A program made the position numbers and the translations under genes. A stretch of 64,000 nucleotides of DNA from a bacterium. GTDB lineage: Bacteria; Actinomycetota; Acidimicrobiia; Acidimicrobiales; CATQHL01. Shown here piece after piece: positions 18,501 through 40,640 of the stretch. The notes under the pieces were generated by a model. It was not told the origin of the DNA, did not search any database, and was given only the letters and a program-made list of their open reading frames with translations. The stretch is taken from positions 101,501 through 165,500 of the forward strand of contig JAPOVS010000026.1 in assembly GCA_026708055.1 (NCBI GenBank), given 5' to 3'. Numbering within the stretch: position 1 is the first letter of the stretch; the number at the start of each line of letters is the position of its first letter.

Positions 18501-18568
18501 CCGCGTCATCGGGCAGCCACCGCACGACGGCGGCCGCTGCCGGACGGCGACCGCACATGGGAGAACAG

Positions 18569-18661
18569 CGGAGGTGGACGGGAATCGAACCCGCCGGACG
18601 GGGATCGCCCGTCCCGCCCGCTTTGAAGGCGGGGGAGCCCACCAGGCGCTCGGACACCTCC
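18569..18661 (-). tRNA. selC: tRNA-Sec (anticodon UCA)
   Basis: A 93-nt gene with the anticodon loop CTTCAAA (UCA) on a GC-rich stem. It has a long extra arm, a GGTTCGATTCC T loop, an extended acceptor stem (GGAGGTG/CACCTCC plus one position) and a G discriminator; CCA is not encoded. These are the marks of bacterial tRNA-Sec, which SerRS charges with serine and SelA converts. selA and selB follow 9-11 kb further on, so the genome can insert selenocysteine at UGA; selD is not in the window. Confidence 0.93.
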
Positions 18662-28057: not shown

Positions 28058-29485
28058 GTGGGCGCGGTGAGCGACAGCCGGAGCACGGCGCCGCAATCGG
28101 TGACCGGGGACGGGGCCCGGCCTCCCAGCGTCGACTCGCTGGCGCAGTCCCTGGCCCCCAGCGGCCTGCCCCACGGGTTGCTGGTTGACGCCGCCCGTGC
28201 CGCCATCGCCGCCGGCGACCCGGGCAGCGCCGCCGAGCGCGCCGAGGCCATCGGGCGATCGCTGCTGCGCCCCGTCATCAATGCGACGGGAGTTCTGCTG
28301 CACACCAACCTGGGTCGGGCGCCGCTGGGCGCTGCCCCGGGCGGGGCTGTCGGGCCGGTCGGGGCGCCAGTCCCCCCGACCCGCTACAGCAACCTGGAGT
28401 CCGACGGCGAGGACCGGCAGGCGACCACCGCGGTCAAGCACCCGCCCCCGATCCGCTACAGCAACCTTGAGTTCGACACCGAGCGCGGCGCCCGCGGCGA
28501 CCGTCACAGCCATGCCGGGGGCCTGCTGGCGCGGCTCTGCGGGGCCGAGGCCGCCCTGGTGGTGAACAACTGCGCCGCCGCGGTCACCTTGGTGCTGGGT
28601 GCGCTCGCAGCAGGGCGCGGCGTGGCGGTCAGCCGCGGCGAACTGGTGGAGATCGGCGGCGGCTTCCGGGTGCCGGAGATCGTGGCGCAGTCCGGGGCGC
28701 GGCTGGTGGAGGTCGGCACCACGAACCGCACCCGGCGTCGGGACTACACGGCCGCCACCGAGGCCGGCGAGGTGGCGCTGTGCCTAAGGGTGCACCAGTC
28801 CAACTACCGCATCGTGGGCTTCACCGAGGCGCCCAACGTCGCCGAGCTGGCCGACCTGGGCGTGCCGCTGGTGGTCGACATCGGCTCGGGTCTGCTGGAC
28901 GAGGCCTGCCAGTGGCTGGCGGGAGGGCCGCCGGCGTGGCTGCGCGGCGAGCCCGCTGCCCGCCAGACCCTCGCCGCCGGGGCCGACCTGGTGACCTTCT
29001 CGGGCGACAAGCTGCTCGGCGGTCCGCAGGCGGGCATCATCGCCGGCAGCGCCGAGTCGGTGGCGCGCTGCGCCCGCCATCCCCTCGCCCGGGCCTTCCG
29101 GGCCGGCGGCCTGGTGCTGGCCGAGTTGCAGACCCTGGCCCTCACCTACCTGCACCGGCGCGGCCAGGACATCCCTTTCTGGAATATGGCCACACGCCCG
29201 GTGGCGGAGCTGCGGGCCCGCGCCGAGGCGCTCGGCGTCGGCGAGGTGTGCGACATGGCGGCCACCACCGGCGGCGGCACCCTGCCGGGCACCGAGATCC
29301 CCTCGGCGGGCATCGTGCTGGACGGCGACCGGGCCGCGGCCCTGCGCGACAACGAGGTTCCGGTCATCGCCCGCGTCGCCGGGCAGCGCACCTACCTGGA
29401 CCTGCGCACCGTCGACCCCGCCGACGACGCCATCGTGGCCGCCGCCGCCCGCCGAGTCTGCGCCACCGTGGAGACTCCCGCGTGA
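28058..29485 (+). CDS. selA: L-seryl-tRNA(Sec) selenium transferase with an internal duplication
   Basis: A 475-residue PLP enzyme that turns Ser-tRNA(Sec) into Sec-tRNA(Sec) with selenophosphate. It has INATGVLLHTNLGRAPL, ALVVNNCAAAVTLVLGAL, CLRVHQSNYRIVGFTEAP and the PLP lysine in TFSGDKLLGGPQAGII. Between HTNLGRAPL and the normal RYSNLEFD...HSHAGGLL block lies an extra 24-codon copy of that block (RYSNLESDGEDRQ) in which the conserved DRHSH part is lost. GTG 28058 is the likely start. selB follows, with tRNA-Sec 9.4 kb away. Confidence 0.9.
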   Translation: MGAVSDSRSTAPQSVTGDGARPPSVDSLAQSLAPSGLPHGLLVDAARAAIAAGDPGSAAERAEAIGRSLLRPVINATGVLLHTNLGRAPLGAAPGGAVGPVGAPVPPTRYSNLESDGEDRQATTAVKHPPPIRYSNLEFDTERGARGDRHSHAGGLLARLCGAEAALVVNNCAAAVTLVLGALAAGRGVAVSRGELVEIGGGFRVPEIVAQSGARLVEVGTTNRTRRRDYTAATEAGEVALCLRVHQSNYRIVGFTEAPNVAELADLGVPLVVDIGSGLLDEACQWLAGGPPAWLRGEPAARQTLAAGADLVTFSGDKLLGGPQAGIIAGSAESVARCARHPLARAFRAGGLVLAELQTLALTYLHRRGQDIPFWNMATRPVAELRARAEALGVGEVCDMAATTGGGTLPGTEIPSAGIVLDGDRAAALRDNEVPVIARVAGQRTYLDLRTVDPADDAIVAAAARRVCATVETPA

Positions 29486-29718: not shown

Positions 29719-31476
29719 GTGCACGTCGTCGCCACCGCCGGCCATGTGGACCACGGCAAGTCCACGCTGGTCAAGGCCCTGACCGGCACCGACCCCGACC
29801 GCTTCGAGGAGGAACGCCGCCGCGGGCTGACGATCGACCTGGGTTTCGCCGCCGCCGAACTGCCCAGCGGGCGACGCTGCGCCATCGTGGATGTGCCGGG
29901 TCACATCAGGTTCATCAGGAACATGCTTGCGGGCGTGGGCGCGGTGGACGCCTGCATCTTCGTCGTCGCCGCCACCGAGGGCTGGAAGCCGCAGTCGGAG
30001 GAGCACCTGCGCATCCTCGAGTTGCTGGGCATCGCCAGCGGACTGGCAGTGCTCACCAAAGTGGACCTCGTCGACGAGGAACTCGTCGAGATCGCCCGCC
30101 TCGACGTCTCCGACCACTTGGCAGGCACGTTCCTGGAGGGCGCCGAGACCGTGGCGACCGACAGCGTCTCGGGGACCGGCATGGACGGCTTCGCCGCGGC
30201 TCTGGACCGCTTGCTGGCGCGCACGCCTACGGCTGCCGACACCGGCCGTCCGCGCTTGTGGGTGGACCGCTCGTTCGTTGCGCCAGGGGCGGGCACCGTG
30301 GTCACCGGCACCCTCACGGGCGGAACCGTCGCCACCGGCGACGAGTTGGTCGTCCGGCCGGGACGTCGGCGCGTGCGGGTGCGCGCCATCCAGAGCCTCT
30401 ACGCCACCCAACCCAGCGTGGGTCCCGGCCGTCGGGCCGCCCTGAACCTCGTCGGCGTCAGCCACGGCGACCTGGGGCGCGGCCATGTGGTCGTCCGGGA
30501 GGATCAGTGGCACCTGACCCGCACCGTGGACGCCTCCCTGGCCGTGCTCGAATCGCTGGACCACGAGGTGAGCCGGCGAGGCGCCTACGTGGCCTACCTG
30601 GGCGCGGGCGAGTTCAGCGTGCGCATGCGCATCCTGGGAGGCGAGTCGCTGCGGCCGGGCAGCCAGGGCGCAGTGCGCCTGCACCTTCCCTGCCGGCTGC
30701 CGCTGCGGCCCGGTGACCGCTTCGTGCTGCGCGAGAGCGGGCGGGCCGAGACGGTCGGCGGCGGTGAGATCCTCGACGTGGACCCGCGCCTTCCCGCCGC
30801 GGTCGCTCGGCCCGATCGCTCGGTGGACCGGGTCATCGCCGAGCGCGGCTGGGTGCGCCCCGACGACCTGTGGCGCCTGACCGGCGAGCGGCGGGCACCG
30901 AACCTCGCGGGCTGGGTGGTCGACCCTGTGACGCTGCAGGAAACGCAGGACGAGATCCGGGCGCGGATCGCCGACGCGGCGGGCCTGGGGCTCGACTTGG
31001 CCGGCCTCAGCGAGCAGGAGCGCGCCGTGGCCGAGCACCTCGACGACGTCGTCGTCGAAGCCGGACGGGCGCACCCCGCCCGTCGGACCGACACGCTGGC
31101 CGAGCACCCGTTCCTGGCCGCGCTGGCTCAGCAGCCCTTCTCGCCCCCCGAACCGGCCGCGCCGGGCGTCCCCGCGGTGGCCCCGGAGGAGTTGCGGGAG
31201 ATGCTGCGACGGGGGCTGGTGGTGTCACTGGACGGTGTGATCTTCCCGGCGGTCGCCCTCGACCGGGCCACCGAGGAGGTCACCCGGCTGCTCGAGACGT
31301 GTCCTGAGGGTTTCACCGTGGCCGAGTTCCGCGACGCCGTCGGGACGACCCGGAAGTACGCCCTGCCGCTGCTGGCGGCTCTGGACGCCGGCGGCATGAC
31401 CCGCCGCCGCGGCGACCTCCGCATAGCCGGCCGCCGCCTCCCCGGCCGGCAAGCGCCACATGGGGGCATCGACTGA
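29719..31476 (+). CDS. selB: Selenocysteine-specific elongation factor
   Basis: A 585-residue translation GTPase that delivers Sec-tRNA(Sec) to UGA codons. G1 is [17 protein letters not shown]2 [12 protein letters not shown]3 [12 protein letters not shown] and G4 [10 protein letters not shown]. Beta domains follow ([18 protein letters not shown]). The C-terminal ~220 residues form winged helices that read the SECIS hairpin ([20 protein letters not shown]). GTG 29719 matches the family start. No selenoprotein gene is obvious in the window. Confidence 0.95.
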
Positions 31477-31576: not shown

Positions 31577-32356
31577 TCATCGGATGTCGGCGCTCGGCGG
31601 GGAGGGACCGTCGCCGCCGCTCGGTAAGTCTGGTTGGGCATCAGGAGCCGCCAGCGCCGGGGGCAGGGATCTCACGATGTTCGTGGTCTCCACTGCGACG
31701 GTGATCAGGCGCCGCAGGTGGCGGATCAGGTTGAACGGCTCGTCGGCCCAGACGTGCCAGCCGTTGGGATCGTCGCTGATGCCCGACGGCTTGTCGTGCT
31801 TCCGGCGGAGACTGTCGATGGCCCAGGCGAGCGGCGAGCGGCCCGACACGGTGTAGATGTGCGCGTCCGGAGGAATCTCGACCAGACGGCACCGTCCGTT
31901 GACCTCCAGGGTGCTGCGGTCCTCGGTTCTGCCTTCGCCCCGGCCCCAGCGCATCCGACCGTCGATGCGGTAGGCGTCGGGGTCGGCGCCACCCTCGTCC
32001 GGCTTTCCGTCCACGAGACAGGCCACCGGCCATTCCGGCACGGTCTCGTAGCCGATGTGCAGGTCCATCAGGGCGCGGCCGGCGGCCCGGAACGCCTCGA
32101 AGTCGGGGGCGAACGGCACCCGCGGCAGGTTGCGCTGCAGGTCGTGGCGGTACCGCTCCCGCCAGTCGGGGGCGTGCATCACGCCGTACAGGTACTCCCA
32201 GATGTCGTCCTTGCTGATGGAGTCGTCGCCGTAGTGGGATCGGAACCGTTCGAGGCACCAGTCGGTGATGTTGTCCTCGTCGGGCTGCGGTTCGTCGAGA
32301 TCGAACCCCAGAGCAAGCGTGTCGGCCACCGCCCTGCTCCCCTCAGACCGGTCCAC
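31577..32356 (-). CDS. C-terminal specificity-type domain of the type ISP enzyme, encoded separately
   Basis: A 259-residue protein matching the last part of single-chain type ISP/LlaGI-like restriction enzymes: DEDNITDWCLERFRSHYGDD, SKDDIWEYLYGVMHAPDW, RERYRHDLQRNLPRVPFAPD, LMDLHIGYETVPEWP and a final LIRHLRRLITVAVETTNIV. In relatives this follows the F..LAT..LPDL segment in the same chain. Here an upstream stop (TGA of GATCTGAACG) closes its frame. The GTG at 32356 overlaps the end of module 5 by 14 bp, so coupling to translation of module 5 is possible. No Shine-Dalgarno is seen. The extreme 3' end is duplicated at 40.65-40.74 kb. Confidence 0.7.
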   Translation of the reverse strand: MDRSEGSRAVADTLALGFDLDEPQPDEDNITDWCLERFRSHYGDDSISKDDIWEYLYGVMHAPDWRERYRHDLQRNLPRVPFAPDFEAFRAAGRALMDLHIGYETVPEWPVACLVDGKPDEGGADPDAYRIDGRMRWGRGEGRTEDRSTLEVNGRCRLVEIPPDAHIYTVSGRSPLAWAIDSLRRKHDKPSGISDDPNGWHVWADEPFNLIRHLRRLITVAVETTNIVRSLPPALAAPDAQPDLPSGGDGPSPPSADIR

Positions 32357-32970
32357 GACGGCCCGAGCGGGGCGACGCTCGCCCGCCGCCGTCGAGCACG
32401 TTCAGATCGGGCAGGTTCGCCGTCGCGAGGACTGCGAACCTGGTCCGGTTCGCCGGGCTGCTCACGAGGATCGCCTCCGGCGGGGGACGGCCCTGGTCTG
32501 CTGCGATCCCTTGATCGAAGCCAGGTCCGGCAGCGTCACGGTCGCCAGCGCCTGGAAGGTCATGTTCGACGTCCCCGAGATGAGGATCGCCTCCGTCTCG
32601 GTAGGCCGCGGGTCTGCCGCCCGGTGGCGCAGAGATCGAAGAGCCGGTCGGCGGCGACGATCCCGAACGGGAGCTGCTGCGTGAGATTGATGAGCACTGA
32701 CGGCCCCCCCCCCCGGTCAGGTTGGGCGCACCGCTTGACGCGGGATCGATCGGCAGGCCGGATCGATCGCGTGGAGGTCCGGGAGGCTCATCGCCGCGAG
32801 AATCGCGAACCTTGTTCGATTCGAGGGGCTGCTCATCAGGATCGCCGTGACCGGGGGACGAGCCGGGTCGGCTGGTTCGTCCCGGCTGCGCTGAGATCGG
32901 AGGGGATAGCTGTGGCGATCGTGCCGAAGATGGCTCGATTGTTCGGTGACGCCACGCAGAGGAACTCGTT
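32343..32970 (-). other. Array of five frame-offset homologous C-terminal modules (M1-M5)
   Basis: Reading the minus strand in all frames gives five related segments. M1 is 32970-32836 (FLCVASPNNRAIFGTIATAI...DLSAAG...VPRSRRS, stop). M2 is 32851-32717 (AILMSSPSNRTRFAILAAMS, LPDLHAID, stop). M3 is 32703-32560 (VLINLTQQLPFGIVAADRLF, DLCATG...GLPRRRRSS, stop). M4 is 32602-32462 (AILISGTSNMTFQALATVTL, PDLASI...AVPRRRRSS, stop). M5 is 32480-32343 (AILVSSPANRTRFAVLATAN, LPDLNVLD, stop). By codon phase (start position modulo 3) they are 0, 1, 0, 1 and 2. The end of one module overlaps the start of the next around a shared GGCGATCCT, read as Arg-Arg-Ser in one frame and Ala-Ile-Leu in the next. Confidence 0.8.
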
Positions 32971-34427
32971 CCGGGATCGGCGCGGGGGAATAGACTCCCG
33001 GACTGTTCGTTCGTTCGTTCGTTCGTTCGTTCGTTCGTTCGTTCGTTCGTTCGTTCGTTCGGTCGGTCGGTCGGTCGGTCGGTCGGTCGTTCGTTCGGTC
33101 GGTCGGTCGGTGCCTCTCTGTCTCGTGGGAACATCGCTGAGACGGTCCTGACCGACGACAGGATGCGATCGTCCTCGTAGAGCCAGAGCTTGGTGAACGG
33201 TCGGTAAAGCACTTCCCGGATGCGGGATTCATCGAACTCGATGCGGTGGCCGCGCTTCAGGGATTGCTTGAGGGTGCCGGTCCACTTGATCCTGTCGAGT
33301 TGATAGTTCTCTGTCGCCTCATCAATCGGTACACCCAGCTGCACGAACTCTCGGGCCTCCTCGTAGGCATCGATGAACTCATTGATGCGGGCAACGAGGT
33401 CGGTCCGGCTGAAGGAGTAGACGTACACGTCGCAGTTGGTAGCGAGGCCGAGTGCATGGACGTCTACTGCGGTGTCGCCCCTCTGATCTCGCGATCCAAG
33501 GGCGCAGACCGGCAGCAGTTGCTCGAACGTGCCGTCGGTCAGATTGACCCAGTGGTGCTCGTCGTTGAGGGGCACCGTCTGGAACTCGTCGCCGGTCACG
33601 TCGCCGAGTTGATCCAGCCACGCCAGCTTGGAATCGAGATTGGAGTACTCGGGCACCTCGGCGTAGTGGAGGGTCGCCAGCTGCGACAGGTCCCTCTCCG
33701 GGTTGCGGACCAGCACTGTGATCTGCACACCGTTGCGGGAGCCGGCACCGAAGATCTTGTCGCCCTCCCGGCGGAACTCGTCGCCGGACTTCATGGCGTC
33801 ACCGCGGAGGTTGACGACGTAGATGTCGCTGAACTCGTCCCGGAGGGCGGCTCGAATCCCCGCCAGGGACGTGCCGTTGCACAGCGAATTGGGGTGGACG
33901 AACGCCACGACACCCGGCCGAGCGGACTCGTCACCGACACCGTTCAAGCGGTCGGACGCCCAGCGGATGGCCTGGACGTAGAGGTTGCCGGCGCTCTTGC
34001 CCGCGCCACGCCCCGTGACCGCCCTGTGACGCTGCCCGTATGTCTCACGCACCCGGGCAGCCAAGGCCGGGTAGTCGATGTTGGGGTTGTCGTCGCCGGC
34101 TGACTTCTGGCCCGCCGACCACGGCGGGTTACCGACGATTACCTCGATGGGCAGGTCGTTCTGGCGCTTGACCCGCGTGGAGTTTCGGCCCATCGGCCCG
34201 AAGGTGGGCAGACGGGTGTTGTCGTTCATCAGGAACGTGTCGGTGAGGACGATCCCCTCGAACGGCTCGTAGTCGCCGGTGCGCTCCCTGTAGCCCTCCT
34301 CGATCTTGAGGGCCGCGAGGTAGTAGGCGAGCAGCACAATCTCGTTGGCATGGATCTCCGGTGCCTCGCCGGCCGCACCGATGAACTTGCGGGCGAGGTC
34401 CTCGTGGCGCACGAGGAAGTCTTCCAC
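32343..34427 (-). CDS. Methyltransferase core of the type ISP enzyme plus hypervariable tail (second frame segment)
   Basis: This 694-codon segment continues the enzyme after the G11 tract. It begins VEDFLVRHEDLARKF, then HANEIVLLAYYLAALKIEE, the N6-adenine MTase motif IV IEVIVGNPPWSAGQ, and FVHPNSLCNGTSLAGIRAAL and RIEFDESRIREVLYRPFTKL, all standard for the ISP MTase region. After AMFPRDREAP it enters the tetranucleotide tract (TDRP/TNER repeats). In the assembled state it then runs open for ~240 codons in a frame that does not encode modules 1-4, and reaches module 5 (AILVSSPANRTRFAVLAT, ANLPDLNVLD) before stopping at 32343. It needs a frame change at 34429-34439 to join the nuclease-helicase part. 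GTG 34427 is where the frame becomes meaningful, not a believable start. Confidence 0.8.
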   Translation of the reverse strand: MEDFLVRHEDLARKFIGAAGEAPEIHANEIVLLAYYLAALKIEEGYRERTGDYEPFEGIVLTDTFLMNDNTRLPTFGPMGRNSTRVKRQNDLPIEVIVGNPPWSAGQKSAGDDNPNIDYPALAARVRETYGQRHRAVTGRGAGKSAGNLYVQAIRWASDRLNGVGDESARPGVVAFVHPNSLCNGTSLAGIRAALRDEFSDIYVVNLRGDAMKSGDEFRREGDKIFGAGSRNGVQITVLVRNPERDLSQLATLHYAEVPEYSNLDSKLAWLDQLGDVTGDEFQTVPLNDEHHWVNLTDGTFEQLLPVCALGSRDQRGDTAVDVHALGLATNCDVYVYSFSRTDLVARINEFIDAYEEAREFVQLGVPIDEATENYQLDRIKWTGTLKQSLKRGHRIEFDESRIREVLYRPFTKLWLYEDDRILSSVRTVSAMFPRDREAPTDRPNERPTDRPTDRPNERTNERTNERTNERTNEQSGSLFPRADPGTSSSAWRHRTIEPSSARSPQLSPPISAQPGRTSRPGSSPGHGDPDEQPLESNKVRDSRGDEPPGPPRDRSGLPIDPASSGAPNLTGGGGRQCSSISRSSSRSGSSPPTGSSISAPPGGRPAAYRDGGDPHLGDVEHDLPGAGDRDAAGPGFDQGIAADQGRPPPEAILVSSPANRTRFAVLATANLPDLNVLDGGGRASPRSGRRGPV
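32704..32714 (-). repeat. G11 homopolymer tract between modules M2 and M3
   Basis: Eleven consecutive G on the coding strand, directly after the M2 stop (32719-32717). With 11 G the methylase frame continues to M5. By arithmetic, 10 G would lead to M4 and 12 G to M3, because all three frames after the tract are open. Confidence 0.85.
33005..33108 (-). repeat. Tetranucleotide tract, 26 units
   Basis: On the plus strand the units are GTTC x14, GGTC x7, GTTC x2 and GGTC x3 (104 bp). On the coding strand these are GACC/GAAC units with no stop in any frame, encoding TDRP and TNER repeats. Each gain or loss of one unit shifts the frame. By arithmetic 26 units keeps the methylase frame on the path to the second G tract, 25 leads to M2 and 27 to M1. 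Confidence 0.9.
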
Positions 34428-37215
34428 GCCCCCCCCCCCGCGAACTCTTCTGCGTCAGGAGACGGTTGACGAACGTACCGGTTCCGGTGAACGGGTCGAG
34501 CACGTGTACGCCCCGGTCGGTGAGGCCGCGCCCGAACTCCTTGCGCAGCACAGCGTCGGCCGAGCGGAGCACGAAATCCACGAGCGGCGGCGGGGTGTAG
34601 ACGATGCCGAGGCGCTTGACCTCCGCGGGCATGGCCTCGGCGAAGAACGTCTCGTAGACCTCCAGCATCACATCGAGGCGGGCGTCGGAGTCGGTGGCGC
34701 CGGCCAGCCGGTTCGCGACGCTGCTGTAGAAGCGGTCGAGGTCGCGGGTCTCGTCGCGCAGGCGGACGTCCTGGCTCTTGAACTCGTCGAGCAACTCGTT
34801 CAGGGCCTTGGAGATGGGATTTCGGTCGGCGAACCCGCTGCCGGAGAACAGGGCGTCGAACACCGGCATCGTCACCACATGCTGCGCCAGCATCGTGACC
34901 AGCGCCGGCTGCGTCAGGTGCGCGCCGACCGTGGCGCGCATGGCGTCACCGAACCGACCGAACGCCTCGGCGAGCATCTCGTCGGAGTCGAGCACGATGC
35001 GGACCCGCGTGATGATCCGTCCGGTGATCGCGGCGACCTCGCGGCCCCAGCGGTCCCAGTACTGGCGGTCGCCGCACACCTCCACCAGCTTCGAGGCGAT
35101 GGCGTTCTCGAACGGGAGCCGGCCCTGCACCGCGTCGCGCCCCGAGGTCCGGGCCGCGCATGCCTCGCCGCCGTCGCAGTCCGCCCGTGCGCACTGGTCG
35201 CAGAGACCGGCTGTGATGATCCTCAGCGGCACGGTGCCGCCGAGGTCCGCCGTGTTGATCGCCACGTCAAGGCGCTCGTCGTGGGACCGGAGCGCCTTCA
35301 GGACGTCCCAGACCTGTTTGAAGTCGGATCCCGACAGCACCCTGTCGTCGGCCAGGCTCGCCCCCGACGGCACCACGACCGGGAGCACGACGTAGCCGTA
35401 CTTCTTGGCCTCCGAGCGGCGCATGACCCTGCCGACCGCCTGCACCACATCGATCTGCGACCGCTTCGGTTCGATGAACAGGACCGCGTCGAGCGCCGGG
35501 ACGTCCACACCCTCGGTCAGGCACTTGGCGTTGGTGACGACCCGGCAGCCGTCGCCGTGGGCGGTGCCCTGCAGCCAGTCGATGGTCGTCTTGCGCTTGA
35601 AGGCATTGTCGCGGCCGTCCACATGGCGGACCGCGCAGTCCAGCAGTTCGGCCCCGGCGGTATTCCGAGCGGCCATGCTGTCGATCACCGGCTCCCAATA
35701 CCTCTCGAGCCGCTGCGAGTTCCTGATGGTGTTGGTGAAGGCGATCGCCCGCCGCGCCGCGAACTCCGGGTTGACCGCCCCGGTGACGCGCCCGGCGGCG
35801 CACCGGGTGGTTGGGTCCGCCAGGGCGTCCCAGCATCCGGCCAGCCGGACGGCCTCCCCCGCGTTGATCGGATCCCGGTCGTCACCGGCCTCTATGTAGT
35901 CGAACTGCTCGATCACGGGGTCCTCGGCCACGGCGATGACCAGTACCTGGTAGTCGGTGAGGTAGCCGCCCTCCACGGCGTCGCCGAAACCCATCCGGGA
36001 GAACTCCGGGCCGTAGACGTCCTCGTCGTCCATCGAGTAGACGTCGAAGTCCCGGACGTGCTCGTCGGCCTTGGCTTTCAGCCGGCTGGTGTACAGGCGC
36101 GGCGTGGCGGTCATGTAGAGCCGCTTATCGGCGCGGATCTCGTCGGGGTCGTGCACGAGCGTGAACGCCGTCGCACGGCTGACCTCCTGGACGCCCGTCG
36201 TGCGGTGCGCCTCGTCGCAGATCACCAGGTCGAAGCCGGGCGCGCCGGCGCGCTGAGCCGCGGCCACCAACTCCAGCGACTGGTAGGTGCAGAAGACCGT
36301 TGTCATCTCATCCTCGGCGGGCACCGAGAGCTGCTCGGTGATCCGCACAGGGTCGGTCGTGACCGGCATGGCCAGTTCGACCATGTCGGCATCCTCGTCG
36401 GCGCGCCCGGCCCGTGTGTCCGAGCAGACGCCGACGTAGCGATGCGGGATGTCGGGGCTGCGACGGCGGGCCCATTCCCGCATGATCTGGCCCATCAGGG
36501 CGATGGACGGCACCAGCAGCATCACCCGCCCGCCCCGGCCGGCGAGGCGCTCGGCGATCCACAGGGCCACCACCGACTTGCCCGTCCCGCAGGGAAGGAT
36601 CAGCTTGCCCCGATCAGACTCGACGAAGCCCGCGATCACCTTCTCGACGGCGGTGGCCTGGAACGGGTACGGCACGCAGCGCGCCGAGTCGAAGGACAGC
36701 CTGTCGGGCGCCTCGAAGAAATCCGACCACGAGACCGGCCAACCCTCGAGGTCGGGGCGCTGCACCACCTCGCAACGGGGCGACGCGTTGAGCACCATCG
36801 TCTCGGCGTTCGACGTGAGCGGCACCGTCACCACCAGGATGCGATGCGTGAACCACGGGGCGCTCGACGCCGAGAGGAACGAGTCCACGTCGGACTTGGC
36901 GATCCGAGAAGTCTCACCGTAGAACTTGGTCTGGATTGCGCACAGGCCGCCGCCCCATTGCTCGGTCTGCTCGGCCACGAGATCGATCCCGACGTCGGGG
37001 CCGTAGCCGTGCGCGGTCCGGCCCGGCCACTCCACCCAGCGCCAGACGTTGCGGAACCGCTGCGGACCGTACTCGCCCGGATGCCGCTCGAAGGCGTACC
37101 GCACGAGCCTCTCGAACACCCGGCCCCGCACACCGTCGTCGGAGTAGCGCTCCCGCAGGCTGTCGAACAGACCGTCGCCCGACTCGCCGGGGCGCGGGCG
37201 CAAATCACCATTCAT
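34129..37215 (-). CDS. Nuclease-helicase part of a phase-variable type ISP (LlaGI-like) restriction-modification enzyme
   Basis: A 1028-codon frame. Residues ~1-160 hold a restriction-endonuclease-like domain (PDVGIDLVAEQ...AIQTKFYGETS). The SF2 helicase follows: KLILPCGTGKSVVALWIAER, LVICDEAHRTTG, KRLYMTATPRLY and VVQAVGRVMRRSEAKKYG. Residues ~850-925 begin the N6-adenine MTase (RLGIVYTPPPLVDFVLRSAD, VHVLDPFTGTGTFVNRLL). At the G11 tract the frame switches, and the last ~100 residues are out-of-frame Arg/Pro/Gly sequence. Enzymes of this type cut unmodified foreign DNA after ATP-driven translocation and protect self by hemimethylation. ATG 37215 is preferred to GTG 37221. A HigBA pair is divergent upstream. 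Confidence 0.85.
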   Translation of the reverse strand: MNGDLRPRPGESGDGLFDSLRERYSDDGVRGRVFERLVRYAFERHPGEYGPQRFRNVWRWVEWPGRTAHGYGPDVGIDLVAEQTEQWGGGLCAIQTKFYGETSRIAKSDVDSFLSASSAPWFTHRILVVTVPLTSNAETMVLNASPRCEVVQRPDLEGWPVSWSDFFEAPDRLSFDSARCVPYPFQATAVEKVIAGFVESDRGKLILPCGTGKSVVALWIAERLAGRGGRVMLLVPSIALMGQIMREWARRRSPDIPHRYVGVCSDTRAGRADEDADMVELAMPVTTDPVRITEQLSVPAEDEMTTVFCTYQSLELVAAAQRAGAPGFDLVICDEAHRTTGVQEVSRATAFTLVHDPDEIRADKRLYMTATPRLYTSRLKAKADEHVRDFDVYSMDDEDVYGPEFSRMGFGDAVEGGYLTDYQVLVIAVAEDPVIEQFDYIEAGDDRDPINAGEAVRLAGCWDALADPTTRCAAGRVTGAVNPEFAARRAIAFTNTIRNSQRLERYWEPVIDSMAARNTAGAELLDCAVRHVDGRDNAFKRKTTIDWLQGTAHGDGCRVVTNAKCLTEGVDVPALDAVLFIEPKRSQIDVVQAVGRVMRRSEAKKYGYVVLPVVVPSGASLADDRVLSGSDFKQVWDVLKALRSHDERLDVAINTADLGGTVPLRIITAGLCDQCARADCDGGEACAARTSGRDAVQGRLPFENAIASKLVEVCGDRQYWDRWGREVAAITGRIITRVRIVLDSDEMLAEAFGRFGDAMRATVGAHLTQPALVTMLAQHVVTMPVFDALFSGSGFADRNPISKALNELLDEFKSQDVRLRDETRDLDRFYSSVANRLAGATDSDARLDVMLEVYETFFAEAMPAEVKRLGIVYTPPPLVDFVLRSADAVLRKEFGRGLTDRGVHVLDPFTGTGTFVNRLLTQKSSRGGGRGRLPRAPRGPRPQVHRCGRRGTGDPCQRDCAARLLPRGPQDRGGLQGAHRRLRAVRGDRPHRHVPDERQHPSAHLRADGPKLHAGQAPERPAHRGNRR
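34429..34439 (-). repeat. G11 homopolymer tract inside the type ISP gene
   Basis: Eleven G on the coding strand just after MTase motif I (LDPFTGTGTFVNRLL). In the assembled sequence the upstream frame runs on only to a stop at 34129, whereas the conserved MTase continues in another frame. Ten or thirteen G would join them, so the assembled state is OFF for the full enzyme. Confidence 0.88.
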
Positions 37216-37278
37216 CGGCACGGGCGTGAACAGTACGCGACCGCGGCCGCCGAGGCGAGCAACGATCCGTCAAGCGTG

Positions 37279-37298
37279 TGATATCATTTTTGATGTCA
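37279..37298 (+). promoter_or_regulatory. Candidate operator/promoter of the HigBA pair
   Basis: TGATATCATTTTTGATGTCA contains two near-palindromic half sites (TGATATCA, TGATGTCA) and a -10-like TATCAT (37282-37287) just before the toxin ATG. This AT-rich spot in GC-rich DNA suits autorepression by the toxin-antitoxin complex. Confidence 0.45.
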
Positions 37299-37636
37299 TG
37301 TGGTCGGTGGAGGTCGAACCGGAAGTCGAGCAATGGATCGAATCGCTCGCCGTGAGGGAGTTTGCACTAGTGCTGGCGGCCGTCGAGCGACTCGCCGAGG
37401 GCGGCAGCCGGCTTCGGTTCCCGGCTTCGCGTCCGCTGGGCGACGGCCTCTTCGAGTTGCGGATCGATCTCGCCCGTACAGCGCGACGGATCACGTTCTA
37501 CTTTGCGGACGACAGGCGGATCGTGCTCTTGACAACGTTCCGCAAGCAGAAGCAGAACGAGCGCACCGAAGTCCGGCGCGCTCGGAGGGCGATGCGCCGA
37601 TGCGTCGCTGAAGGACACGCAGTCGAGGAGGAATGA
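37298..37636 (+). CDS. RelE/HigB-like toxin (phage Gp49-like family)
   Basis: A 112-residue protein starting MWSVEVEPEVEQWIESL, then LRFPASRPLGDGLFELRIDL, ARRITFYFADDRRIVLLTTF and RKQKQNERTEVRRARRAMRR. This order (toxin first, HTH antitoxin second) and the GLFELR...R.TF...LL..F.KK pattern are typical of HigB/Gp49-like ribosome-dependent mRNA interferases. Its stop overlaps the antitoxin start. It is divergent from the type ISP gene and may stabilise the island. Confidence 0.88.
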   Translation: MWSVEVEPEVEQWIESLAVREFALVLAAVERLAEGGSRLRFPASRPLGDGLFELRIDLARTARRITFYFADDRRIVLLTTFRKQKQNERTEVRRARRAMRRCVAEGHAVEEE

Positions 37637-37941
37637 TGGCGCGCCCAACGATTGAAGAGATTCGAGATATGCGACTCGACGCGATGAGCGATGACGAGCG
37701 CGCCGAGTTCGACGCGGCGCTCGCGGCGGCCCGACTGGCTCTGGAGGTCGGGGAGCAGGTCCGCGATGCGCGAGAAGCTGCGGGCCTGACTCAGCGACAA
37801 CTGGCGACTCGCATGGCCACGAGCCAGGCGGCGGTAGCCCGCCTCGAGGCCGGCGGCACGAGCGCAACGCTCGCCACGCTTCAAAAAGTCGCCGCAGCGC
37901 TCGACATGACGATCACGGTCAACCTGGCTCCGGCGCACTGA
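37633..37941 (+). CDS. HigA-like antitoxin with HTH_XRE domain
   Basis: A 102-residue protein. The C-terminal half is a lambda-repressor-like HTH (VRDAREAAGLTQRQLATRMA, TSQAAVARLEAGG, TLATLQKVAAALD). ATG 37633 or 37636 follows a strong GAGGAGGA Shine-Dalgarno inside the toxin gene. It should bind the upstream toxin and repress the operon. Confidence 0.9.
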   Translation: MMARPTIEEIRDMRLDAMSDDERAEFDAALAAARLALEVGEQVRDAREAAGLTQRQLATRMATSQAAVARLEAGGTSATLATLQKVAAALDMTITVNLAPAH

Positions 37942-38345: not shown

Positions 38346-39530
38346 TCAGAGCCCTCTCATCCCTCGCGCCGCCCGCCGATTGCCTGGATCCGCTGCTTCA
38401 GCACGTTGAAGCTCGGGCCACCAGCCGAGCATCTTGCTGCATATGTCCGCGTACAGGCGGGCGGTCGCGCCGCCTCCGAACGCCGCCTCCGGCGCGACGT
38501 CGAACGCGTGGTGCAGCAGTGTGGGCGTGTCAGTCTCAATCACCATGTCGACGACCAACGGATTGGGCGAGACGCCCGAGGTCTGATCGGTGTCGAACAC
38601 GAGAATCCATGCCGTCGCCTCCTCAGTCAGCCCGACGCCTTCCGGTCGAGGCAATGATCGGAGCGTCCGATCACGAGGATCGATCAGCAGTTCAGGTCCG
38701 CCGAGGTGTGGCTGCCAGGAGTTCCACACCGCACGCGGAAGCGCCAGCACGGTTCCTGCGCAACTCGCGTGGAGACCCAACTGGAACTTGAAGATCATCT
38801 GGTAGAAGGTCCGCTTGAACGTGTCGGCGATGCTTGGCCCCTGGATCGCCCTCCCCGCCCACTCGGGGTTCTCGCGGACTTGATCGGCGAAACTCGACTG
38901 ATGCAGGTCGAGCGCGTTTCTCAGCGCCGTCGTGGCCTGGCCGTACGATCCGTGGAACTCCATCGTCTGCACTTCCACGATTGCGTACCGGCCGATCTCG
39001 GGATCGCCCGAACCGCCCAGGAGTTCGACCATGGCGATGTCGAATGAGAGTTCCGGCGATCGATCAGTCGGTCTCAGCGAGATTTCCCCGCCAAGGCGGG
39101 CACGAAAGTAGACGATCACCGGTTCGTCGACAGCGAGCGCGGCTCGGATACGCAACCGCGACCTCGGATCGTCAAGCGTCACAGCGGCGACGATCAGCGC
39201 ATCGGCATCGCCAGCGACATCGAACAGGCGACGCGCAACCTCGTTGAGCAGTCCACCGTCGAGCGTGCGATACGGGCAAACCAGCCAGTCGATCGAGCCG
39301 TCGTCGACGCCATACCGGCGCGCGTTCCGGCTGGTGATCGTGCACACGCCCTGGGAAGGCGTCGCCTTGATGCATTCCTGGGCTTCACCGACCGCTTCGG
39401 TCAAGAACGGGCACAGATGTGCCCGCATCGCATCCAGCGAAGCGGCGCCGAGTTGAACTTCGGGGTAGATTCGCTGTCCGAACCACTCTCCCACGTAGTG
39501 ATTCGGCTGACGTGAGCTACGCCGAGCCAC
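38346..39530 (-). CDS. NotI-like type II restriction endonuclease
   Basis: A 394-residue protein that aligns from memory along most of its length with R.NotI: WFGQRIYPEVQ, four cysteines in CPFLTEAVGEAQECIK...GVCTI...DWLVCPYR (the NotI Fe-Cys4 site), LGGEISLRPTDRSPELSFD, the catalytic E-x-Q region VEVQTMEFHGSYGQATTALR, FKRTFYQMIFKFQLGLHASC and AGTVLALPRAVWNSW. NotI cuts GCGGCCGC; the same or a related 8-bp site is the natural guess. The start overlaps the end of the methyltransferase gene by 14 bp, as in many type II operons. Confidence 0.85.
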   Translation of the reverse strand: MARRSSRQPNHYVGEWFGQRIYPEVQLGAASLDAMRAHLCPFLTEAVGEAQECIKATPSQGVCTITSRNARRYGVDDGSIDWLVCPYRTLDGGLLNEVARRLFDVAGDADALIVAAVTLDDPRSRLRIRAALAVDEPVIVYFRARLGGEISLRPTDRSPELSFDIAMVELLGGSGDPEIGRYAIVEVQTMEFHGSYGQATTALRNALDLHQSSFADQVRENPEWAGRAIQGPSIADTFKRTFYQMIFKFQLGLHASCAGTVLALPRAVWNSWQPHLGGPELLIDPRDRTLRSLPRPEGVGLTEEATAWILVFDTDQTSGVSPNPLVVDMVIETDTPTLLHHAFDVAPEAAFGGGATARLYADICSKMLGWWPELQRAEAADPGNRRAARGMRGL

Positions 39531-40470
39531 GAAGTCGAGTGCTGATCACGCTTGCCAGATCCCGCGCGGCAACTTCCGCGAACGATTCGGCCGACTCGAA
39601 GCCGATCGCGGTTCGCCCATGCGCGGCTGCGATCGTGAGCGCACGTCCGGTGCCGCAGAACGGGTCGAGGACCACACCGCCGACCGGCGACGACGACAGG
39701 ACGCGGGGGCGAATCACCTCCGGCGGGAACGTCGCCGAGTGTCCGTGCGCCCCCGAGCGAGCGTTGACGGTCACCACGTCACGGGCGCCGGGCTCGACTT
39801 CGTCCAGGTCATAGAAGTAAGCGGCCCGACCCTCGCTCGGCCGGCGAACGAAGTGAAACAGGTGCTCGTGGGTCAGCCGGAGGCGATCCCTCTCGGGCCG
39901 GGGCGGAACATTCGGCTTCGACCAGATGAGATCGTTCCGCAGAATCCAGCGACGACCCTGCATCAAGATCGCGAACCGCGCCGGCACCATCAGCAACTGC
40001 TTCTCCTGCCGGTAGTCCCCCATCGGCGTGCGCCGTCTGACCCGGCGCGTGCCGCCGAGGCCTTGCCGGCCCCCGGGGCGGATGCTCGCCCAACGCGCGA
40101 AGTAGGTGTCGCCGATGTTGACCCAGACGTTCCCGTCGGCCTTTAGGACAGGGCGTGCCCGGTCGAACCACTCGGCCAGGTGAGCCACGTACCAGTCAGG
40201 CGTCGGTTCAAGACCCAACATGCCGCCGTTAGCGCGGTACCAGTCATACGGAGGGGCAACATCAAGCGACTCGCCCTCGCGCCGCCACGCATCCTGAACC
40301 GCCCAGTTGTGATCCTCCTGCCCCTCGTACACGCGCTGACACCAATACGGCGGGCTCGTCACGATCAAGTCCACCGACGACTCGGGCAGCTTCCCAATCA
40401 GATCGAATGCATCGCCGCAGTAGATCTCCGACTCTCGGGGCACCGAGGTTTTCGCGGGCCGGCCACTCAT
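39517..40470 (-). CDS. DNA methyltransferase (beta class, N4-cytosine or N6-adenine) of the NotI-like system
   Basis: A protein of about 317 residues with motif IV first (LIVTSPPYWCQRVYEG), the target-related middle (RFAILMQGRRWILRNDLIWS, KPNVPP) and motif I last (GVVLDPFCGTGRALTIAAAH, GRTAIGFE), the beta-class order. TSPPYW favours N4-cytosine methylation, which would suit a G+C-only site such as GCGGCCGC. The start is ATG 40470, with TATTGT 7 nt upstream (leaderless pattern), or ATG 40500. It is cotranscribed with the endonuclease. Confidence 0.85.
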   Translation of the reverse strand: MSGRPAKTSVPRESEIYCGDAFDLIGKLPESSVDLIVTSPPYWCQRVYEGQEDHNWAVQDAWRREGESLDVAPPYDWYRANGGMLGLEPTPDWYVAHLAEWFDRARPVLKADGNVWVNIGDTYFARWASIRPGGRQGLGGTRRVRRRTPMGDYRQEKQLLMVPARFAILMQGRRWILRNDLIWSKPNVPPRPERDRLRLTHEHLFHFVRRPSEGRAAYFYDLDEVEPGARDVVTVNARSGAHGHSATFPPEVIRPRVLSSSPVGGVVLDPFCGTGRALTIAAAHGRTAIGFESAESFAEVAARDLASVISTRLRGSA

Positions 40471-40640
40471 GCGACCAACAATAGGGTCGGGGTGTGACAT
40501 CGCAGCGGACCGGAGTCGGCTGGCGACGCGGACGAGGCTCGTCTGGGAACCGGCGGAAGGCACCATCAGGATCACCAACCATCACGGCTACTGCGCATCG
40601 ACGGTCGCCGCCGCGAGTGTCGAGGCGGCCGCCAACGTCG

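Follow-up and report, generated by a model that had tools for sequence, protein, structure and literature searches.

How can one restriction-modification gene end in five different ways, and what would follow from the choice among them? This question is raised by a Type ISP restriction-modification gene lying on the minus strand, from 37221 to 31577, of a 64,000-nucleotide stretch of an acidimicrobial contig (JAPOVS010000026.1, positions 101,501 to 165,500; hereafter the window). A sequence-only reading of this DNA had proposed that two repeat tracts downstream of the methyltransferase select among five alternative C-termini of the enzyme. Our analysis makes it probable that the gene encodes a split Type ISP enzyme in which two tracts, each left in three frames, lead to five homologous modules predicted to contain Loop VI, so that slippage would select the end of the protein and likely the DNA sequence recognized.

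Five homologous modules behind two tracts

Computation of the exit frames and re-translation of the modules bore out the arrangement proposed earlier. All three frames leaving each tract are open; those leaving tract 1 lead to module 1, to module 2 or onward to tract 2, and those leaving tract 2 lead to modules 3, 4 and 5. The methyltransferase frame of the assembly passes both tracts and ends in module 5. The modules comprise about 40 residues each, and their mutual homology, also claimed from the sequence alone, was clear from a single profile matching all five at 49–73 bits, well above background. Over 13 loci, every module match of this profile falls on the sense strand, the reverse strand giving two matches at 7–8 bits; the profile was trained on the 13 loci scored with it, and its training set contained neither loci L069–L079 nor the database proteins. 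The window contains two homopolymers of at least 9 nucleotides, both in this gene, a number that is not unusual against a Markov expectation of 1.6.

The identity of the modules is suggested by comparison with the Type ISP enzymes LlaGI and LlaBIII. A profile of 20 modules searched against PDB sequences gave a single match at E values up to 10, namely LlaGI (chain index 1183–1215, E 0.12), and module 5 aligns without gaps to LlaBIII 1339–1371, an alignment that is not significant alone. An offset of 164, under which N1327 and R1329 fall where the excerpted text of Kulkarni et al. (2016, PMC4872093) puts them, makes the module correspond to LlaGI 1347–1379. According to the same excerpts, residues 1347–1358 of LlaGI form a beta-hairpin and 1365–1374 Loop VI, and the base at position +3 is read by H1368 of LlaGI, with G1372 and Q1373, and by N1360 of LlaBIII. 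We predict from these alignments that the module is the beta-hairpin plus the base-reading Loop VI of the target-recognition domain. When modules are sorted into classes, the framework residues are common and the loops class-specific, each class signature being kept across genomes. The place that would read +3 is occupied by H in classes C, D, F2 and J, N in E and G, S or C in A, A in B, C in F and K in H (one readout each in classes A and D took an earlier D and gave P). The homology to Loop VI strengthens the proposal that a swap of modules would change DNA specificity.

Related arrays in other genomes

A scan of GTDB genomes recovered 14 loci, all in metagenome-assembled genomes of Acidimicrobiia or Acidimicrobiaceae, and 13 of them have arrays; at L014 the contig ends inside the methyltransferase. 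Further searches for relatives yielded 11 more arrays after the removal of copies (L067, L068 and L071, whose contigs equal in length those of L010, L017 and L011, respectively, and L022, which has the same end as L009), bringing the total to 25 with that of the window. The 24 further arrays, some of them incomplete, follow one plan, with one to four tracts and, where complete, three to eight modules. One tract is accompanied by three modules, two tracts in complete arrays by five, three tracts by seven (L010, L073, L078), and the four tracts of L077 by eight. Since every tract contributes two modules and hands its third frame to what follows, up to 2k+1 modules can be reached with k tracts. 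The first tract of six arrays (L070, L073, L075, the second array of L076, L077 and L078) lies inside Loop VI of an additional first module, which is completed by an exit that stops after 8–15 residues. Five arrays, belonging to four loci (L073, L076, L077 and L078), are found on contigs of 2.3–3.0 Mb. Locus L076 carries two units of ISP methyltransferase plus array 5.2 kb apart, with several nearly identical modules in a different order, an arrangement that points to module exchange between arrays.

By our labels, the first tract repeats GA in 7 arrays and AC in 3; it is a G run in 11 and a C run in 2, and the remaining 2 have a tetranucleotide. Repeat units measure 1, 2 or 4 nucleotides in 25/25 arrays, none being a multiple of three, and the tract lies in the coding region, as in phase variation by simple sequence repeats. 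On a tree of the arrays the first-tract unit changes 13 times, the minimum possible being 6, and AC and GA occur within one clade; the unit is still clustered, as few changes being reached in 1 of 200 shuffles. Three of the five canonical rows in this tree are badly cut, and we draw nothing from their placement. Invariant tract lengths among relatives would have told against switching; both lengths and units differ, to which errors in homopolymer base-calling may contribute.

A search of the phylum (396 genomes) gave only the window's own genome and one 23-bit match, and a search of the class (395 genomes) gave 14 positives, among which are the window's own genome and three weak matches; the array therefore looks confined to Acidimicrobiia in the sampled genomes. 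No relatives were found among the viral contigs searched. One of the 120 database proteins listed, the chain 1 protein P0344 with a class A module, is labelled Candidatus Dadabacteria, which might reflect a transfer of the system outside Acidimicrobiia.

Open exits, fixed spacing and purifying selection

Open frames had been considered unremarkable at this GC content (0.705). Synonymous recoding with the codon usage of each locus (400 trials) corrects that opinion, as all six exits of the window stay open in only 4% of the recodings; the corresponding figures for the other 16 arrays range from 0 to 13% (the test did not include L017, L070 or L072, nor the fourth tract of L077). A module or the next tract is reached by 105/105 exits in 17 arrays and by 120/123 in the 20 gap-free arrays, counting the six additional first modules. 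Of the three failing exits, that of L070 runs into a contig end, that of L072 meets a damaged module and that of L077 is empty; the tally omits five of the 25 arrays, L009 for its contig end and L011, L013, L020 and L074 for N gaps. Adjacent modules without a tract of at least 8 nucleotides between them are spaced by 2 mod 3 in 67/68 cases. The exception is a pair in L017 where no such tract separates modules 2 and 3 but a C7 run is present, and the usual two-plus-three plan is therefore restored for modules 3 and 4.

The ratio of nonsynonymous to synonymous substitution rates (dN/dS) in the module frame was 0.28 for class A, 0.16 for B, 0.19 for C, 0.19 for D, 0.20 for E, 0.18 for F, 0.15 for F2, 0.24 for the main set of G and 0.24 for H, while shifted frames, where scorable, gave 1.04 and above. 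Modules are thus under purifying selection in all nine classes scored; class J, with two sequences, gave no usable value. Among 116 modules in 25 arrays, a class is repeated within an array 2 times against 25.9 expected, and never fewer than 14 times in 20,000 shuffles. This count leaves out the six additional first modules and the detached remnants of L017 (at 6148) and L019 (beyond 9500), and the labels of seven modules were assigned by hand. Classes F and F2 are kin, and merging them raises the repeats, by eye, from 2 to 6, the expectation of 25.9 applying to the unmerged classes. The scarcity of repeats indicates that arrays are repertoires rather than fresh duplicates. The earlier argument that a homologous module in each frame is not expected by chance has been amply sustained by the 24 further arrays, their spacing and the dN/dS values, and the relatives preserve frame order instead of showing the stop-riddled decay that would have told against it.

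Possible switching among near-identical genes

Database proteins matching the end of chain 1, the chain that carries the modules, number 191, and 115 of the 120 listed hold a module near their end, many with linkers ahead of the module that read as translated repeats such as RERE, THTH, GGGG or PPPP. Among the listed proteins and the loci, five pairs from different contigs have methyltransferases at least 99% identical, and 5/5 differ in module. Proteins P0300, P0338 and P0340, from contigs of 75,660, 1,775,320 and 147,641 bases, respectively, differ mutually in module, P0338 and P0340 being separated by one gap of 33 residues. L073 and P0264 are identical over 814/814 upstream residues and each ends in a different one of the three computed exits of tract 1 of L073, and in the comparison of L009 with P0272 the module adjoining the tract is replaced. 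These pairs support slippage but do not prove it, because clustering of the protein database at 90% identity conceals genes that share a state, because homopolymers may be miscalled and because paralogues are indistinguishable from alleles.

A split Type ISP enzyme

The Type ISP domain set is complete and in order, with an Mrr-type nuclease, an SF2 motor, a coupler, a gamma N6-adenine methyltransferase whose reading frame has the NPPW motif, and a Type ISP specificity domain, as judged from matches to Pfam, PADLOC (Type IIG and Type I restriction-modification models), LlaGI and LlaBIII. Type ISP enzymes are single polypeptides; here the specificity domain is divided over two genes, since PF18135 positions 5–106 are found in chain 1 and 166–339 in a separate gene, so that the window enzyme is a split derivative of Type ISP. 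Chain 2, the product of that gene, aligns to LlaGI at about 1392–1565 and to LlaBIII 1402–1572, that is, to the core end and the guide (1440–1578 in the excerpts of PMC4872093). Its start is probably the GTG at 32329, from which VADTL.. was aligned by eye with MADTL.. of relatives. Of 530 homologues of chain 2, 118 of the 120 listed have 224–291 residues. In nine other loci the guide gene is placed upstream or occupies the opposite strand; at L070, L072 and L075 it is upstream and on the other strand. Because this constant subunit is encoded separately, the earlier description of the modules as alternative C-termini of the enzyme holds for chain 1 but not for the whole enzyme. In a canonical Type ISP gene of genome G008 (L080), otherwise unsplit, a C16 run separates the Loop VI segment from the guide, which is in another frame; this gene might be an evolutionary intermediate of the split.

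Chain 2 and a G11 tract upstream of the methyltransferase are additions to the sequence-only reading. This tract lies between the coupler and the methyltransferase, and in the assembly the nuclease-helicase part and the methyltransferase part are in different frames. Runs of G10–G11 occur also in the nuclease-helicase part of L008, L010, L012 and L019, with long open frames changing nearby, which suggests an additional ON/OFF layer in the window and its relatives. Coordinates are collected in Table 1.

Table 1. Features of the split Type ISP locus (window coordinates)
Feature	Position	Strand	Matches and remarks
Chain 1, N-terminal part: Mrr-type nuclease, ResIII/DEAD and Helicase_C motor, ISP coupler, methyltransferase start	34440..37221	-	PF13156, PF04851, PF00270, PF00271, PF22240
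G11 tract within coding region, likely ON/OFF switch	34429..34439	-	Flanking coding frames differ in assembly
Chain 1, methyltransferase and first part of target-recognition domain	33110..34427	-	PF18135 positions 5-106 of 342; 5ffj/4xqk/7lo5 matches
Loop V equivalent (ILSSVRTV), constant, just ahead of tract 1	33141..33164	-	Aligned to LlaGI 1324-1331; loop limits from excerpts of PMC4872093
Tract 1, tetranucleotide (GTTC/GGTC) repeat, three-way frame selector	33005..33109	-	26.2 copies
Module 1, class A (..DLSAAGTNQPTR..)	32836..32961	-	Includes stop codon
Module 2, class C (..DLHAIDPACR..)	32717..32842	-	Includes stop codon
Tract 2, G11 (C11 on plus strand), second three-way frame selector	32704..32714	-	
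Module 3, class F (..DLCATGRQTR..)	32560..32697	-	Includes stop codon
Module 4, class B (..DLASIKGSQQTR..)	32462..32587	-	Includes stop codon
Module 5, class G (..DLNVLDGGGR..)	32343..32471	-	Includes stop codon; frame of methyltransferase in this assembly
Chain 2, constant guide half of target-recognition domain, separate gene	31577..32329 (open reading frame 31577-32356)	-	PF18135 positions 166-339

Proposed mechanism and alternative explanations

We infer from the sequence that the tracts slip in living cells, that the two chains assemble and that the DNA target is altered as a result. Chain 1, with nuclease, motor, coupler, methyltransferase and Loops I–V, is constant up to tract 1. The frame in which tract 1 is left would then decide whether translation terminates in module 1 or in module 2 or continues to tract 2, where a second choice would end it in module 3, 4 or 5. 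Once made, chain 1 would join chain 2, the guide half, and so complete the DNA clamp, and the upstream G11 tract would turn chain 1 on or off. Extended to all the relatives, it seems likely that such loci constitute frame-multiplexed specificity arrays. Nested tracts, by slipping, would act as a heritable decision tree through which k tracts reach up to 2k+1 interchangeable DNA-reading loops (eight in L077), all of them overlapping in three frames, with the constant guide supplied in trans. The target motif would thereby rotate in the population with no need of a recombinase, inversion or donor cassettes, and modules would also be exchanged between the arrays of different genes.

The same layout could serve another end. 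RNA polymerase or the ribosome might slip at the tracts and make all the modules from one DNA sequence, giving each cell a mixture of enzymes with no switch in the genome. Such a scheme too would need all exits simultaneously open and under selection, as they are, and G and C runs of 9–15 are plausible slip sites. Against it, the first tract is GA, AC or a tetranucleotide in 12/25 arrays, types of repeat with known DNA slippage (tetranucleotides, for instance, in Haemophilus), and near-identical genes differ in tract state, which makes this explanation quite unlikely. Switching in the genome might also be real but leave the DNA target unchanged, the modules affecting instead how active the enzyme is, how its subunits pair or whether it escapes phage inhibitors, with some states possibly OFF. 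We know of no DNA target for any of these enzymes. Moreover, according to the excerpts of PMC4872093, the part of the module that forms the hairpin touches other loops and the DNA backbone in LlaGI and LlaBIII, so a swap could affect stability. Against this, most of the variation between classes falls in Loop VI and extends to the residue that would read +3 (H, N, A, S/C or K), and the signatures are kept across genomes, so that a set of specificities fits better than OFF states; we regard this alternative as improbable.

A tandem duplication of a gene segment, decaying by frameshifts with the repeats as by-products, would accord with the frame split at the upstream G11 and the damaged module of L072. 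It is scarcely tenable given the purifying selection, the fixed frame step, the non-redundant classes, the same plan in 24 other arrays and the relocation of the guide as a separate gene; we rejected it on the recoding test, dN/dS values of 0.15–0.28, class non-redundancy and the 2 mod 3 spacing. A specificity locus shuffled by recombination, as in HsdS inversion, was also rejected. Between 31500 and 33500 no repeats flank exchangeable target domains, the inverted repeats found being only two weak pairs of 20–21 nucleotides (80–86%) and the direct ones the tract, a 112-nucleotide similarity between modules and one 30-nucleotide pair at 70%.

Several observations nevertheless weigh against a genomic choice among Loop VI modules. 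The PDB match of the module profile, at 15.4 bits, is weak by itself, and the product of the recoding probabilities over arrays, about 10^-34 with a floor of 1/400, combines values that are not independent, because the arrays are related. Chain 1 of the window is broken at the upstream G11 tract in the assembled sequence. The out-of-frame spacer amounts to 54 residues before module 2 and to roughly 100–180 before modules 3–5, and may hinder folding. The plan has exceptions in the second tract of L017, which is only C7, in the damaged module 2 of L072 and in one last exit of L077, which is empty. Finally, L009 and P0272 differ in module content and not in tract length alone, and the gene pairs differing in module could be homopolymer miscalls or paralogues.

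If frame choice among Loop VI modules is correct, it would represent a new way to change the target of a restriction-modification system, neither ON/OFF nor by recombination, through selection among pre-written recognition loops, with overlapping frames each maintained for its own homologous product. The re-targeting of Type ISP and IIL enzymes, an open problem, would also become directly testable with such natural collections of exchangeable Loop VI segments. The arrays would moreover be a candidate phase-variation system in uncultured environmental bacteria, the phase-variation literature that we found dealing mainly with cultured pathogens.

Neighbouring genes

The window also encodes selenocysteine machinery, namely tRNA-SeC (18568-18661), SelA (28058-29485), whose reading frame shows an internal repeat (RYSNLE..), and SelB (29719-31476). 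Beside the restriction gene, a pair of Gp49-like and helix-turn-helix genes (37226-37941, plus strand) resembles a HigBA-type toxin-antitoxin module. A Type II-like DNA methyltransferase (39517-40578, minus strand) adjoins a 394-residue protein (38346-39530, minus strand) that had no Pfam or PADLOC match at E 0.001 and is perhaps its partner nuclease.

Comparison with known systems

Among the papers listed by our searches of open-licence PMC (at most 20 per search, preprints not covered), we found no description of an array in which chained tracts lead, in each frame, to one of several homologous recognition modules. Of the known systems closest to the array, the enzymes LlaGI and LlaBIII (PMC4872093; 5ffj, 4xqk) share the domain order, the coupler, the methyltransferase and the specificity domain, in which the module corresponds to beta-hairpin plus Loop VI, but in the excerpts they are single chains with one Loop VI, whereas in the arrays a separate gene encodes the guide half, and three to eight versions of Loop VI are available. 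The recombination-shuffled HsdS of pneumococcus likewise obtains several target specificities from one locus by reversible switching, though, in the source excerpts, by inversion or other recombination of target domains and not by frame choice at repeat tracts.

In C-terminal phase variation, described in Helicobacter canadensis (PMC2823697) and Neisseria gonorrhoeae (PMC5320596), repeats close to the 3' end of a gene determine in which of three frames its C-terminus is read, and one frame may fuse to the next coding sequence; in the window too, a tract towards the 3' end leads in three frames to different C-termini. The tails of that literature, as excerpted, vary in length, are mostly short and are not described as mutually homologous, whereas the array has a homologous, conserved module in every frame and chains its tracts into a decision tree. 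Slippage at the poly-G tract of NgoAV HsdS (PMC6789123) similarly alters the DNA motif of a restriction-modification system, but there specificity changes through HsdS truncation and the number of amino-acid repeats, alternative modules and nested tracts not being described in the excerpted text. Repeat-driven phase variation, C-terminal phase variation and a restriction-modification system whose target is shifted by a G tract are already in print, and the array stands at the far end of this known kind.

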